A DNA stretch of 36,477 nt from a virus. Both the position numbers and the translations under genes were made by a program. The stretch lies in the IMG/VR virus record IMGVR_UViG_3300044970_001476, positions 1-36,477 of that record; one strand, 5' to 3'. Shown here one piece after another: positions 4,780 to 35,501 of the stretch (position 1 is its first letter; each line of letters starts with the position of its first letter). The notes under the pieces are model-generated. The model had not been told where the DNA came from. It did not search any database and was given only the letters and a program-made list of their open reading frames with translations.

Positions 4780-4783
4780 GTCG

Positions 4784-4791
4784 CAAATTTA
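4784..4791 (-). promoter_or_regulatory. -7 element TAAATTTG abutting the glycosyltransferase start
   Basis: TAAATTTG matches TAnnTTTG and ends 4 nt before the ATG at 4779, which would put transcription start at or very near the start codon. The same TAAnTTTGC(A/G)A(T/C)ATG arrangement occurs at 33627-33641. Confidence 0.4.
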
Positions 4792-4829
4792 TGCAAAATG
4801 TGCGACAACAAATGTTAAAAAAACAAAAA

Positions 4830-4851
4830 CCCCCGATGATGACACCGGGGG
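4830..4851 (-). terminator. Strong intrinsic terminator
   Basis: CCCCCG at 4830-4835 pairs with CGGGGG at 4846-4851 across a 10-nt loop. On the minus strand the hairpin is followed by TTTTTGTTTTTTT. It lies about 30 nt past the stop of the 148-aa gene and isolates the glycosyltransferase from it. Confidence 0.85.
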
Positions 4852-4881
4852 CAAACAAACAAACAAACAAAACAAAACAAA

Positions 4882-23180: not shown

Positions 23181-23210
23181 GACAAATTATTTGGTCAAAA
23201 ATAAACAAAA

Positions 23211-23253
23211 AAATCTGACCTCTAACATTTTTTACATATTAAAGGTCAGATTT
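23211..23253. terminator. Hairpin with 11-bp arms, probable terminator
   Basis: AAATCTGACCT (23211-23221) and AGGTCAGATTT (23243-23253) are perfect inverted repeats around a 21-nt loop. On the minus strand the 3' arm ends in TTTTTTTGTTT, forming the U-tract. It separates the 397-aa gene from the fibre unit. Confidence 0.75.
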
Positions 23254-23270
23254 GTAAATTTTCAATTGAA

Positions 23271-24464: not shown

Positions 24465-24481
24465 ATTACTTATTTTGTTTA

Positions 24482-24513
24482 CAAATGTAAAGTGTTTTTA
24501 TTTATTTTGCAAA
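24482..24513 (-). promoter_or_regulatory. Bacteroidota promoter, TTTG-N20-TACATTTG
   Basis: TTTG (24510-24513) and TACATTTG (24482-24489) are 20 nt apart on the minus strand; the ATG at 24464 is 17 nt downstream. The 20-bp plus-strand segment 24481-24500 is identical to 27181-27200, the promoter of the scaffold candidate. Confidence 0.8.
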
Positions 24514-24527
24514 TTTTAACAAATAAA

Positions 24528-24553
24528 AAAGCCCCGCATCGCTGCGAGGCTTT
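24528..24553 (-). terminator. Intrinsic terminator after the major capsid gene
   Basis: AAAGCCtCGC and GCGgGGCTTT pair (10-bp stem, one mismatch that becomes G-U) around a 6-nt loop on the minus strand, followed by TTTATTTG. It lies about 20 nt past the capsid stop codon. Confidence 0.85.
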
Positions 24554-24573
24554 CGTAGATGATATGCTTATGA

Positions 24574-29939: not shown

Positions 29940-31736
29940 TTAAAACGGATCGTCCTCCAACGGCTCAAAGTTATCAAACACCTGAGTAAATTCCTCTCTG
30001 TTCGGAACTATCGGCCTCTCGGACTTAACTTCAAAATTTATCTTCGGCTGACTCGCGGATGAGTCAATCCATGACCTGTAATCGGGATTTATGGGGTCTT
30101 GAAATCTGCCGGAATGTATGTCGTACTGATAAGACACCATACCCCTGTCTCCCCAATGCGAGAACTTCACTTTCTGAATATAAATCTCGGAACATTCCTG
30201 ACCTTCCACGGTGTTTCTGTACACGCAGAATCCGTTGTCGGTTTTGTTGTAGAAGTTTGCAGAGCCGTTGATGTCGTAAAGGTTAGGCACGACAAAGTAC
30301 CCGTCCTTCTCCTTCGGCATCTTACGCGGGTGAGCCACGAGGATGCAATGGATATTCTCATGCTCGCAGAACATCGCCAACTTGTCAAGACTCTCCCCGA
30401 TGTACTTGCTTTCATTTTCCCCGTACTTGTGTTCCAGCTTATTCCAAGCATCTATCACGAACATATCTATGCCCTTCTGCCTGCGAAGTTGCTTAACGTG
30501 CGAAAGAATCGTGTCAAGGGTAAAATCTTTCTCAGGCTTCACAAACCAAAACTTCTCATTCAGATAATTTTTTACCGATGCAAGTTCCGAGGGTGTTATC
30601 TTCCCGTTTCCGAACCAAGGCTTGCCTGTAAGTTTTCTTGCCAACTTTGAGAAGTGAAGCTGCGTGGGCTTGTTCTCAGGTGAGTAAAATGCCGTTTTCC
30701 ATCCCGCATTCACAAGCAGCTTCAAACATATTTGGTCAACGAAGTCAGACTTTCCGTGACCGGGTATTCCCGTTACGGTGGTGATGTAGCCCTTCACAAA
30801 CCGAAGGTGGTTATCAAACTTGCCCATGCCTGTCGGTGTCCCGTTATCAAGACCGTTGGCGTACAGGTCGTCAATGTCAAGGTCTATGTCGGCAATGGTA
30901 AAAGCCCCCTCAAGAGGAAAGTTTTTTGCGGAGAGGATTGCATTCCTCACCGAAACAACTCCCTCTGCCATCATCAGTTCGTTAAGGTCTTTGTACACAT
31001 CGCTCTCCCAATACTTACACCTCTCAACCCCAAATCGGTGTGCAATGTCCTGTCTCAGCTTACGGCCCGGTGCATCGTTGTCCGTGGCGATGATGATTTC
31101 CGAAACATGGTTGAACAACGGGTGGCAGTTCTCCAAATACTCAAGATTGTTGTTCTTCGGATTTGCCCCGTTAGGCACGGACAGCACATTTTCAATCCCG
31201 CATTGTATCAAAGTCAGCGCATCCATCTCTCCCTCCACGATGATGATTTTTTCGTGATTCTGCACCGCGTCAAGGTTGTAAAATATCAGTTCGCTGTCCT
31301 TGTGCAGCTTGAAATTTTTATTGCCATCGCGGTACTTTACGTTTATAAGTTCACCTTCGTAGAAGTAGTTGAACTGCACGGTGTTAACTTCCTTCTGATG
31401 CTGAGGCATCCACTCCAAACCTTCGGAAATCTTCATGGCATTCAGTGTCTCCTGCTTGATTCCTCTTGACTCAAACCACTTCACCAATTTCTCGCTCAGG
31501 CCGGTCTTATTCTTCCACACGGGCTTCACGTAAACCTTCGGCTGTATTCTCTCCTCCTTCAGAAACCCTTTCCAATCGCAATGGTGGCAATGCCAAACCT
31601 TTTTGTCCAAGTTCACAGAAAGGCACTTGTCGGATTTCTTCTTGCGGGTGTGTGAGCATTCGGGACACAGCGTGTAATGCTCACCGCTTATCTTGTTCGC
31701 GGGAACCTTAATCCCGTACTTTTCGTAAGTTTCCAT
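29940..31736 (-). CDS. Primase-helicase (T7 gp4/Twinkle type)
   Basis: A 598-aa fusion of primase and hexameric helicase. A zinc-binding domain is visible (C24-x2-C27 ... C50-x2-C53, CPEC and CHHC), then a Toprim domain with IIIVEGEMDALTLIQCG (E168/E170/D172) and IIATDNDAPGRK (D219/D221), and a RecA-like helicase domain with Walker A GIPGHGKS (323-330) and a Walker B-like region MFVIDAWNKLEHKY. The C-terminus ends FEPLEDDPF, similar to the SSB-like protein's acidic tip. The start overlaps the upstream stop as TGATG. It would prime and unwind at the phage fork. A repeat-like sequence (30921-30951) lies within its coding region. Confidence 0.92.
   Translation of the reverse strand: METYEKYGIKVPANKISGEHYTLCPECSHTRKKKSDKCLSVNLDKKVWHCHHCDWKGFLKEERIQPKVYVKPVWKNKTGLSEKLVKWFESRGIKQETLNAMKISEGLEWMPQHQKEVNTVQFNYFYEGELINVKYRDGNKNFKLHKDSELIFYNLDAVQNHEKIIIVEGEMDALTLIQCGIENVLSVPNGANPKNNNLEYLENCHPLFNHVSEIIIATDNDAPGRKLRQDIAHRFGVERCKYWESDVYKDLNELMMAEGVVSVRNAILSAKNFPLEGAFTIADIDLDIDDLYANGLDNGTPTGMGKFDNHLRFVKGYITTVTGIPGHGKSDFVDQICLKLLVNAGWKTAFYSPENKPTQLHFSKLARKLTGKPWFGNGKITPSELASVKNYLNEKFWFVKPEKDFTLDTILSHVKQLRRQKGIDMFVIDAWNKLEHKYGENESKYIGESLDKLAMFCEHENIHCILVAHPRKMPKEKDGYFVVPNLYDINGSANFYNKTDNGFCVYRNTVEGQECSEIYIQKVKFSHWGDRGMVSYQYDIHSGRFQDPINPDYRSWIDSSASQPKINFEVKSERPIVPNREEFTQVFDNFEPLEDDPF
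30921..30951. repeat. Second copy of the inverted repeat-related element, inside the primase gene
   Basis: GTTTTTTGCGGAGAGG, a short centre, then CCTCACC. This parallels 19221-19251 (GTTTTTACGGAGAGG ... CCTCACC): the T-run, both arms and even the single arm mismatch are shared. Here it is coding (V-R-N-A-I-L-S-A-K-N). Confidence 0.5.
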
Positions 31737-32581
31737 CAGTACACCATCCTCCTTTCCACGGCAGGTTTTACAATAGGCATCTTTGCAGCCTCAACGTACT
31801 TGGTAAACTTCTCCTCCCCGAACAGCGTGTCGGGAGTAAGGTACTGCGCCATCTTCTCGTCATTTGCCCAATCGCGGTACTTCATCTCCACAACGGCCCT
31901 GAAATCACTCTTGGTGTATCCGGCCTTGAGCAGCTTGCTTATCTTCCCGATTCTTGACTTGTTCACGATGCACTTCTTTCCGGTTACGGCATTGAATATT
32001 TCCAAAACCTCATTCACATCCCCAAGCACGTGTATTTTCAATTCCGGTTTCTTGGAATCAGAGGCCGTAATTTTAGAATCAGGGGCGGCGGTGTCGAATG
32101 TCTCATTCGACATATTATCTTTATCTATTACACTTACACTTACACTTACACTATCACTTACAGCGATGTTTGCGATGTTTTGCGATAAATTTTGTCGCAA
32201 ATCATCGCTTAGCGATATTTTGCGATCGCTATTATCGCTTAGCGATGTTTTGCGATGTTTTGCGATAGATAATGCTTGTTCAAGTGAAAGTTCTCCTTTA
32301 TTAAACTTGTCGTAAAGGTCTGAGTGCCACCTTCTTAAATTTCCAATACCTCCCGACTTGGAACGCTCCTCCTTCTTATCCTCCCACTTAACAAGATCGC
32401 GTTTCATTGCCTGTTTGATCGGTTCAAAGGCAATCTGCACCAAAACATCATCCGTCTCCGGATTTTGGTCGTTGACATACCGGAGGATGTGTTTGAATAA
32501 TTCACCCGCCTTATCGTGAGGTAATTTTTCAACCAAATGAATAATGTCACAATACAAAATGAATGACTTTTTATTTTCCAT
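31736..32581 (-). CDS. Replisome-organizer-like replication initiator (probable)
   Basis: The preferred ATG (MENKKSFILYCDI) gives 281 aa; it overlaps the preceding gene's stop (ATGGAAAATAA). Residues 1-90 match the DUF6291-type N-terminal region (SFILYCDIIHLVEKL, GELFKHILRYVNDQ). Residues about 180-265 match the conserved phage C-terminal domain Phg_2220_C (VLEIFNAVTGKKCIVNKSRI through DTLFGEEKFTKYVEA), found in phage replisome organizers that recruit helicase to the origin. Between them is a Ser/Asp-rich linker (about 95-150) whose DNA carries a phased GCGAT array (32162-32266) and a hexanucleotide repeat. The next gene is the primase-helicase, joined by TGATG. Confidence 0.65.
   Translation of the reverse strand: MENKKSFILYCDIIHLVEKLPHDKAGELFKHILRYVNDQNPETDDVLVQIAFEPIKQAMKRDLVKWEDKKEERSKSGGIGNLRRWHSDLYDKFNKGELSLEQALSIAKHRKTSLSDNSDRKISLSDDLRQNLSQNIANIAVSDSVSVSVSVIDKDNMSNETFDTAAPDSKITASDSKKPELKIHVLGDVNEVLEIFNAVTGKKCIVNKSRIGKISKLLKAGYTKSDFRAVVEMKYRDWANDEKMAQYLTPDTLFGEEKFTKYVEAAKMPIVKPAVERRMVY
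32132..32161 (+). repeat. Hexanucleotide tandem repeat (ACTTAC), five units
   Basis: Five 6-bp units, one with two substitutions (ACTATC). On the minus strand they encode V-S-V-S-V. The block adjoins the GCGAT array in the initiator gene. Confidence 0.85.
32162..32270. repeat. Origin-like iteron array (phased GCGAT boxes) inside the initiator gene
   Basis: Eight GCGAT boxes on the plus strand start at 32163, 32172, 32182, 32212, 32222, 32242, 32252 and 32262, seven of them in 10-bp phase; three inverted boxes (ATCGC) start at 32204, 32225 and 32234. The palindrome ATCGCTTAGCGAT occurs at 32204-32216 and 32234-32246, exactly 30 bp apart, each followed by RTTTTGCGAT. Such phased iterons in an initiator gene suggest a replication origin, as in lambda gene O. 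Confidence 0.7.
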
Positions 32582-32792
32582 TTTCTTCCGTATTAAGTTG
32601 TGAAATTTCAAATTTAAGCCTTTTAGACAGCGCTGCCGCCGTCAGCTTATTCATTATAACCCCGTCCTTTACGTGACCGTTGGTTACAAATCCGAACACA
32701 ATGTGTCCCGAAGGAAGCCGCATAATGCGAACAGCCTTCTCATTCCCCTCTCTGTCGGGGCTTCCGTAAAATTGAACATTTACTTCGCTCAT
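32571..32792 (-). CDS. Small hypothetical protein, 73 aa
   Basis: A 73-aa soluble protein (MSEVNVQFYGSPDREGNEKAV) with a beta-rich first half and a basic helix (AAALSKRLKFEISQL) at the end. I recognise no family. Its stop overlaps the start of the initiator gene by 11 nt, so translation is probably coupled. It is the first gene after the structured leader with complementary-loop hairpins, which may therefore control this unit. A regulatory or replication accessory role is plausible from context only. Confidence 0.6.
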   Translation of the reverse strand: MSEVNVQFYGSPDREGNEKAVRIMRLPSGHIVFGFVTNGHVKDGVIMNKLTAAALSKRLKFEISQLNTEENGK

Positions 32793-32828: not shown

Positions 32829-32931
32829 AAAAAAAATGCCCCTATGAGGTTCGGTTGCAGCGAAACACCCAAAGAGGCAAAATGAATTTATATATAAGGA
32901 TTCTGCAACAATCCTGTTTTTACAAAAAGAA
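32829..32931 (-). ncRNA. Two-hairpin RNA with complementary 7-nt loops, ending in a terminator
   Basis: On the minus strand after the -7 box at 32938-32945: hairpin 1 (32897-32915) has a 6-bp stem AGGATT/AATCCT and loop GTTGCAG. Hairpin 2 (32838-32878) has outer stem GCCTCTTTGGG/CCTCATAGGGGC with G-U pairs and inner stem TTCG/CGAA closing loop CTGCAAC. The two 7-nt loops are perfectly complementary. Hairpin 2 is followed by A and eight T (32829-32836), an intrinsic-terminator pattern. This may be a free RNA of about 100 nt or an attenuator leader of the replication genes. Confidence 0.55.
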
Positions 32932-32937
32932 CGGACA

Positions 32938-32945
32938 CAAATATA
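32938..32945 (-). promoter_or_regulatory. -7 element TATATTTG before the two-hairpin RNA
   Basis: TATATTTG fits TAnnTTTG, just after the stop codon of the gene ending at 32949. It would place transcription start near 32931 and produce the hairpin RNA or leader. No TTTG box is seen 20 nt upstream. Confidence 0.5.
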
Positions 32946-32948
32946 TAC

Positions 32949-33242
32949 CTAAAACTCATTACCCATGAACTCAGCCTCAAGAAAATTTACAAACTGCTGA
33001 ATATCATTGATAAAAAAATCTTTGCCGTTTCTTTTAACAAGCCTTCCCTCATCATGGTAAAGCCAATTCTCAATAACTTCCCTTGATTCCTGACCATACA
33101 TAACATACAGGCCCTCCTCAAGCATTCTTGCCGTCTTATGATGGTTAATCACATGAACACCCAACCTGTTTAACTTCTGATCATCGTTAAAGAAATTCAG
33201 AAGATGTTCAATAACCATTACCGCATATTCACTTCTACTCAT
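32949..33242 (-). CDS. Small hypothetical protein, 97 aa
   Basis: A 97-aa mostly helical acidic protein (EYAVMVIEHLLNFFNDDQK, ARMLEEGLYVMYGQESREVIENWLYHDEG). I recognise no family and see no membrane segment. It overlaps the preceding gene by 8 nt and forms an early gene string with the 69-aa and 62-aa proteins. Its stop is followed directly by the promoter of the hairpin RNA. Function unknown. Confidence 0.6.
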   Translation of the reverse strand: MSRSEYAVMVIEHLLNFFNDDQKLNRLGVHVINHHKTARMLEEGLYVMYGQESREVIENWLYHDEGRLVKRNGKDFFINDIQQFVNFLEAEFMGNEF

Positions 33243-34574: not shown

Positions 34575-34900
34575 CACCATTACCCCACACACCCCGTGTT
34601 AAAAATTCTTAAATCAGCCAAGGTAAACTATCAATCAAAAAAAGTTTTGTTTTTACGGTGAAGAGGTGGCATTTGGGTATTGATAATCAATCTGTTGCAA
34701 AGTAAACTATTTTTCAAAAATGGGCGATTTTGAGGGTTGGATTGTCAAATGATTCAAAAAGGCTTCAGATGTACCGTTTGACTAAAGCTCATTACGCTTG
34801 ATTTAAGCACGTTTCGCGTTTAAGATGACACACGGGGTCAATTCGCCCGAGATGTGCCGTCAGAATGAACGGATGGGGGCTTATATGTTTAAAGAATGGG

Positions 34901-34972
34901 TGCGATAGGTGGTGGGTTTTGACAAATGAGTGGGATAGGTGGATGATTTTTAATAATAGGCGCGATAGGTGG
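34901..34972 (+). repeat. Three GATAGGTGG repeats at exact 30-bp spacing
   Basis: TGCGATAGGTGG (34901), TGGGATAGGTGG (34931) and CGCGATAGGTGG (34961) start exactly 30 bp apart. The period is a multiple of three, so an open frame here (34865-35065) reads repeated D-R-W every 10 residues; this could be coding or iteron-like. Two of the three contain GCGAT, the core of the array in the initiator gene. Confidence 0.75.
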
Positions 34973-35501
34973 ACGAGGGTGGTTACCCGTCAAATACCAC
35001 CCCCCATCCCAACCCGTAGGGCAAACCGAAAACCCGAAGCCACCCCCTCCAAAGGACAAACGTAAAGCCAAAACGGAAAGCACACTCAATGCCCTGCCCA
35101 TACCTGCAAAGCAAAGCGAGACGCATGCAGGCAGATACAAGGCAGATGCATAGGGCAATATTATCGTACTTGTCATCCTTCGGTGTAATGTGCAATAAAG
35201 CGACAAGGCACGGGCAATTTGAACGGGCAAAGCATATAGAATTTATCTATTTTTATGGCAAAAGGTATAGTTTTTGCCTATTTTGGGAAGCAGAAATAAC
35301 CACCTCCCATTTTTCCCTATTTTTCTTCATTGTTTACCCTCCCATTTTTACCCACTTTTCCCCACTATTTAACCCGTTTAATTTTGCCCACTTTCTCCCC
35401 TTGTTTAACTCATCCCGTTTTATCCGTTTCCCTTTATTGTTTATTCTCTTTTTATATGTTTGCTTCCTGTTGTGTTTATATATATAAGTAGATGATAATA
35501 A

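Follow-up and report, generated by a model that had tools for sequence, protein, structure and literature searches.

Organisation of the leader region

The window, as the whole sequence is called below, is a virus record from IMG/VR with a length of 36,477 bases. On the minus strand, an intergenic stretch between a 97-aa ORF (stop codon at 32949) and a 73-aa ORF (start codon at 32792) carries, in this order, a TATATTTG box, hairpin 1, about 18 nt of mainly A/T, hairpin 2, a run of eight T, hairpin 3 and the ATG (Table 1). An earlier reading of the sequence alone had noticed two hairpins with exactly complementary 7-nt loops, a promoter box upstream of them and eight T after the second, and all of these are confirmed on the minus strand. 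The pairing between the two loops (K1 and K2) covers exactly 7 nt, with no complementarity beyond either loop edge. The promoter has a weak −33 element, and its TAnnTTTG box lies 28 nt from loop 1, compared with mostly 4–21 nt in relatives. The TAnnTTTG boxes and the relatives described below point to a host among the Bacteroidetes. Three other gaps in the window (4780–4881, 23181–23270 and 24465–24573) hold a terminator followed by a TAnnTTTG promoter, the opposite order to that of the leader.

Table 1. Features of the leader and of the operon downstream (window coordinates).
Feature	Position	Strand	Basis
-7 box TATATTTG, Bacteroidetes TAnnTTTG promoter type	32938..32945	-	sequence
Hairpin 1, 6-bp stem AGGATT/AATCCT, 7-nt loop	32897..32915	-	sequence; stem in most relatives
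Loop 1 (K1) GTTGCAG	32903..32909	-	exact K2 complement; covaries in relatives
Hairpin 2, terminator-like stem-loop	32837..32879	-	outer stem in MFE fold; structure kept in relatives
Hairpin 2 outer stem GCCTCT/AGGGGC	32878-32873 with 32843-32838	-	sequence
Hairpin 2 inner part TTCG[CTGCAAC]CGAA	32864-32850	-	sequence
Loop 2 (K2) CTGCAAC	32854..32860	-	exact K1 complement; covaries in relatives
Eight-T tract, putative intrinsic terminator/attenuator tail	32829..32836	-	sequence; T-run ~16 nt past K2 in most relatives
Hairpin 3 CGTTT-ATCCTA-AAACG, between T-run and start codon	32803..32818	-	compensated stem and kept loop in relatives
73-aa ORF, first of operon	32571..32792	-	predicted bbbba fold
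Replication initiator-like protein, DUF6291 + Phg_2220_C	31736..32593	-	Pfam E 1.4e-21, 7e-18; phrog_428
Primase-helicase, Toprim + DnaB_C	29940..31736	-	Pfam; phrog_239 E 2.1e-99

The element had been placed directly upstream of the initiator and primase genes. It does lie upstream of both, but the 73-aa ORF comes first. The product of this ORF has a predicted bbbba fold (pLDDT 86), and its best structural neighbours by VIA-align are PUR, PC4 and Whirly single-strand nucleic-acid-binding proteins, at middling Z scores of 5–7 and including a PC4 homologue of phage T5; a Foldseek search with the protein gave no significant match. The protein might act in replication or might read the leader. 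It belongs to a small family that forms the first ORF in several phages, and relatives found after the leaders of many phages have a common C-terminal motif, DKSTAIKFxKTLRTEI.

Hairpin 3 occurs directly before the start codon in the window and in L006, L085, L086, L099, L107, L187, L024 and L033. Across relatives its stem shows compensated changes, its loop is kept as ATC(C/T)TA(A) or ATC(T/C)TTA(A), and it co-occurs with the small STAIKF-type ORF. A role as translational operator is possible.

Folding and chance level of the single instance

The MFE fold of the window leader contains hairpin 2 and lacks hairpin 1, and its folding energy is unremarkable (z −0.88). A loose version of the feature arises about three times per shuffled 36-kb sequence, and a strict version (stem 1 of at least 6 bp, inner stem 2 of at least 4 bp) 0.23 times per shuffled 36-kb genome, both strands counted. 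When the window's 156-nt intergenic region was shuffled, 37 of 6000 shuffles gave two closed hairpins with complementary 7-nt loops. The window instance alone is thus weak evidence, suggestive only, and the comparison with relatives carries the claim. That the two loops are complementary by chance would accord with a single instance that is by itself insufficiently rare, but all of the comparative evidence, including the covariation in relatives, contradicts it, and its probability is negligible.

Two further readings of the loop sequence in the window were rejected. For hairpin 1 as a DNA operator palindrome, there was neither a second exact copy nor an excess of near-copies in the window. 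The loop 1 heptamer GTTGCAG occurs at 14 sites in the window, compared with 4.6 in dinucleotide shuffles; considered as targets in trans, they show no significant excess under synonymous-codon shuffles (9 against 5.4; 45/500).

Related leaders and their loop pairs

The primase-helicase was used as bait and gave 80 viral loci; further loci were reached via three other primases, and cultured phages were added. The 73-aa and 97-aa ORFs, used in the same way, gave only one near-identical contig. The leader of this sole close relative is 100% identical to that of the window, so only phages at a greater distance provide a test of the window's own loops. A first scan of bacterial-assembly contigs returned no relatives, and a profile scan of such contigs found 19 loci, three of which carry the element with yet other loop pairs. 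A pattern scan built on the Flavobacterium-type frame was set aside, as its matches seem to be false positives in coding sequence.

In most relatives, a gap of about 100–220 nt with the same layout is found before the initiator gene or before a small ORF preceding it: promoter, hairpin 1, 36–50 nt, hairpin 2, a T-run about 16 nt later, and a start codon. Cultured phages of Flavobacterium, Cellulophaga and Tenacibaculum with related primase-helicases share this layout. Among L110–L127, whose primases are at least 92% identical, unrelated initiator genes sit directly upstream, each with its own leader, a modular exchange of initiators. The genome of Tenacibaculum phage JQ (L190) also carries, at 34705–35096, several copies of intergenic imperfect repeats of the type CAGTGTCCCGATATTCATT...GCACTTTAAAA(A)GAAACAG.

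The catalogue holds 40 distinct loop pairs, all complementary (examples in Table 2), and since its entries were chosen for complementarity it is no test by itself. The spacing between loops is mostly 36–50 nt, with 76–79 nt in one clade. The T-run starts about 16 nt past loop 2 in many members, and a strong T-run is missing in some (L006, L016 and L086). In L017, L020 and L037, a three-way-junction version is found, where a single-stranded segment pairs with the loop inside the terminator-like hairpin and the two covary.

Table 2. Examples of paired loop sequences in related leaders.
Leader	Loop pair(s)
L007	GCATCAC/GTGATGC
L063	TGTGGG/CCCACA
L070	CTGGAAG/CTTCCAG
L042	CTCGCCAA/TTGGCGAG
L006	AAGTAGAGAG/CTCTCTACTT
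Flavobacterium phage tooticki6-1	GTGAGACG/CGTCTCAC
Cellulophaga phage phi10:1	GTACGAC/GTCGTAC
Tenacibaculum phage JQ	GCATCCTAC/GTAGGATGC
Three-way-junction group (L017, L020, L037)	CTATAAC/GTTATAG, GCTTAAC/GTTAAGC, CATCTAC/GTAGATG

Covariation of the loops

If the loops pair with each other, they should change together in relatives, as the sequence-only reading had itself proposed, and this is what was found, both in the 40 complementary pairs and in 12 clade B variants without an uncompensated change. In a blind test, loops were defined solely by folding, and the promoter and T-run were picked by pattern and terminator-stem energy. In a set of 35 non-redundant leaders, at least six complementary loop nucleotides were found in 12 of 35 within-leader comparisons, against 24 of 1190 between leaders. 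None of 20,000 permutations reached the observed sum of 159, the best permuted value being 125.

For clade B, five variants were obtained via the primase and more by a pattern with four loop 1 bases left free and loop 2 unspecified. Every one of the 84 cells of the loop-loop helix is paired across its 12 distinct sequences, with no uncompensated change, and double compensatory changes occur at four of the seven loop pairs. The covariation score of the whole structure was reached by none of 500 shuffles, and slid structures also scored much worse. In a pattern survey of the clade (spacer 25–55 nt; a set partly known beforehand), 11 of 12 unique leaders carry one loop pair.

The leaders L110 and L112 give a close view of such a change. 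Their initiator regions are about 99–100% identical over some 800 bp, yet three adjacent loop 1 bases have been replaced together with the matching three in loop 2 (CGT to AAC, compensated by ACG to GTT). Recombination is as likely a cause as stepwise change, because the upstream region and linker also differ somewhat.

A descriptor of the geometry, derived from the same loci and made up of promoter, hairpin 1, loop pair with its spacing, hairpin 2 and T-run, gave 95 hits in the sense orientation against 10 antisense and 4 in shuffled sequence (29, 5 and 4 when non-redundant). Its hits peak 500–1000 bp upstream of the primase, at 0.75 per kb compared with mostly less than 0.25 within a few kb. 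Folding was more stable in the sense than in the antisense orientation in 22 of 28 leaders. The sets are related by descent and their counts are not independent events, so the argument rests mainly on the permutation and compensation tests.

By sequence comparison, the leaders show two closed hairpins, fully complementary loops and compensatory change, which are among the features that define kissing-loop RNAs. The kissing-loop geometry and leader position first suggested for the window are strongly supported by the covarying loops and shared layout of the relatives, and the leader architecture, with selection for complementary loops, can be taken as almost certain from these comparisons.

Gene contexts

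The element is not bound to one gene. In Flavobacterium phage tooticki6-1, it also precedes an HNH-endonuclease/SSB operon, with the loops GTCGTCG/CGACGAC, so that this genome has two leaders with different loop pairs; L032 likewise carries two leaders with different loops. At other loci it stands before genes resembling RecT and helicases (named by eye from their translations). Many leaders precede unrelated first genes and have neither hairpin 3 nor the small protein.

These contexts bear on whether the feature acts as DNA, either as a single-stranded structure or as protein-binding inverted repeats at a replication origin. The adjoining initiator gene would fit such a role, but the occurrence of similar leaders ahead of genes for HNH endonuclease and RecT-like proteins does not, the descriptor hits and folding stability are strand-asymmetric, and the promoter and T-run are placed for transcription of one strand. 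An origin structure is accordingly highly improbable.

Possible function of the leader

The intrinsic-attenuator layout (promoter, terminator hairpin, T-run and no later promoter) is present in the window and in 25 leaders that had been selected for their T-run. In relatives, the T-run usually follows directly after hairpin 2. A start codon was located for 25 descriptor-selected leaders, and none of these has a TAnnTTTG box between it and the T-run; the gene must therefore be reached by read-through, either from the leader or from upstream. Regulated termination at the leader, that is, attenuation, is plausible on this layout.

The element is best explained as a cis-acting structured 5′ leader of the phage replication operon, with a full loop-loop helix joining the 5′-proximal hairpin to the terminator-like one. 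That it works as a kissing-loop-gated transcription attenuator is a prediction that we hold at close to an even chance. Transcription would begin just past the TAnnTTTG box and hairpin 1 would fold first. With some 16 nt separating the end of loop 2 from the T-run, loop 2 would exit RNA polymerase at about the time the polymerase meets the T-run. Capture of loop 2 by loop 1 would then determine how hairpin 2 folds, and so whether transcription stops at the T-run or reads through to the initiator and primase genes, setting the timing or level of their expression. Hairpin 2 can stay intact while the loops kiss, which leaves no obvious mutually exclusive switch, and termination may not be the conserved function, because some relatives have no strong T-run. 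Conditional attenuation is nevertheless the best single mechanism and, we infer, the most likely role.

The weak T-run of some relatives would also suit a post-transcriptional element, in which the T-run is incidental and the kissing structure either guards the 5′ end or governs how the first gene is translated; the small nucleic-acid-binding protein encoded by the operon itself would perhaps be its reader. The start codon is just 7–50 nt past the T-run, hairpin 3 with its kept loop lies just before it, and the first ORF has the PUR/PC4/Whirly-like predicted fold. Against this, the T-run right behind a stable stem is the common state, and many leaders standing before unrelated first genes lack both hairpin 3 and the small protein. 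We regard such a role as unlikely, if worth keeping in mind.

Dimerisation, raised in the sequence-only reading, is conceivable, and pairing in trans is a further reading. In the latter, the terminated leader would accumulate as a small RNA whose loops pair with nascent leaders of other genome copies or of co-infecting phages. Copy-number feedback or superinfection exclusion would result, and the loops would diversify so as to remain distinct, in the manner of plasmid incompatibility or the immunity of phage P4. Loop replacement between close relatives is always compensated while the frame is invariant, tooticki6-1 and L032 each combine two leaders with different loops in one genome, and P4 keeps its replication genes repressed through premature termination within their leader, directed by an RNA (PMC4825925). 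However, the partners share one molecule, where pairing in cis should win; the single loop pair of nearly all clade B survey leaders argues that diversification is not relentless; and the heptamer has no significant excess in the window genes under the codon-preserving null. Specificity in trans thus seems rather unlikely. It is, in our estimate, distinctly doubtful that the freely interchangeable loop pairs form a specificity code, one matched pair for each phage or operon, amounting to an RNA-coded incompatibility or immunity system. If they did, replication and early expression could be controlled apart from co-infecting relatives.

The two hairpins at the extreme 5′ end of phage operons, more than one operon in some phages, also recall antitermination in cis of the HK022 put kind, in which the folded leader would bind the elongating polymerase so that downstream terminators are ignored. 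Primary sequence is not conserved across the clades, however, and the element itself bears a terminator-like tail, making this very unlikely.

These leaders would be a new regulatory RNA family in abundant and poorly understood Bacteroidetes phages, positioned upstream of the genes that initiate replication of the genome. Cultured hosts are available for phages of Flavobacterium, Cellulophaga and Tenacibaculum, which opens the family to direct testing, and candidate orthogonal kissing parts could be drawn straight from the loop pairs found in nature.

Comparison with known systems

HK022 put is a cis-acting antitermination RNA that acts on the elongating polymerase and is marked by a conserved put sequence. 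The leaders here, compared only with one another, have no primary sequence common to the clades. In ColE1, RNAI and RNAII are two opposing transcripts with fully complementary 7-nt hairpin loops that control replication. The complementary 7-nt loops and the replication context are alike in both systems, but here there is a single transcript that continues into an intrinsic-terminator-like tail. The sequence-only reading had drawn the parallel with RNAI/RNAII, but a pair of that kind is not what is observed: a single transcript carries the two loops, separated by about 40 nt, and their pairing within one molecule is the simpler explanation. On the plus strand, covered by generic promoter scans, no opposing antisense transcript was identified.

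Rfam 15 gave no matches at gathering score in the window or in 16 relatives, and at a relaxed E-value only unrelated, sub-threshold matches. A search of a limited library of open-licence literature found no such leaders in Bacteroidetes phages.

The CI RNA of phage P4 is a processed antisense RNA that pairs with two sites, seqA and seqC (PMC4825925). Like the present element, it concerns the leader of a phage replication operon, and in P4 it is RNA–RNA pairing that decides premature termination. The window leader, compared with P4 by description only, has one complementary pair with both members in hairpin loops; the partners belong to one leader with a terminator-like hairpin, and no homology is claimed. 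The Guanidine-II riboswitch also has two hairpins in one leader, which are thought to kiss intramolecularly, and its conserved ACGR loops bind guanidine (PMC7357161), whereas the loops of the phage leaders vary freely in sequence and conserve nothing but their complementarity. The pRNA of phi29 is a phage RNA with complementary loops on the same molecule, and multimerises by 4-bp contacts for packaging (PMC7357161), in contrast to the 6–10 bp contact in mRNA leaders described here. The STAXI motif, a tandem repeat of pseudoknots in Enterobacteriales, lies near genes for DNA-handling proteins (PMC2864571); the phage leaders are likewise pseudoknotted elements near such genes, but without a match in Rfam.

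A loop sequence that is apparently free, given a matching change in its partner, is unusual among known leader RNAs. We conclude that the kissing-loop leader RNAs, as defined by their sequences, appear to constitute an undescribed family of cis-acting 5′-leader RNAs with a conserved loop-loop contact. The working principle has relatives in the P4 CI RNA, ColE1 and the Guanidine-II riboswitch, none of which matches the definition of this leader family.
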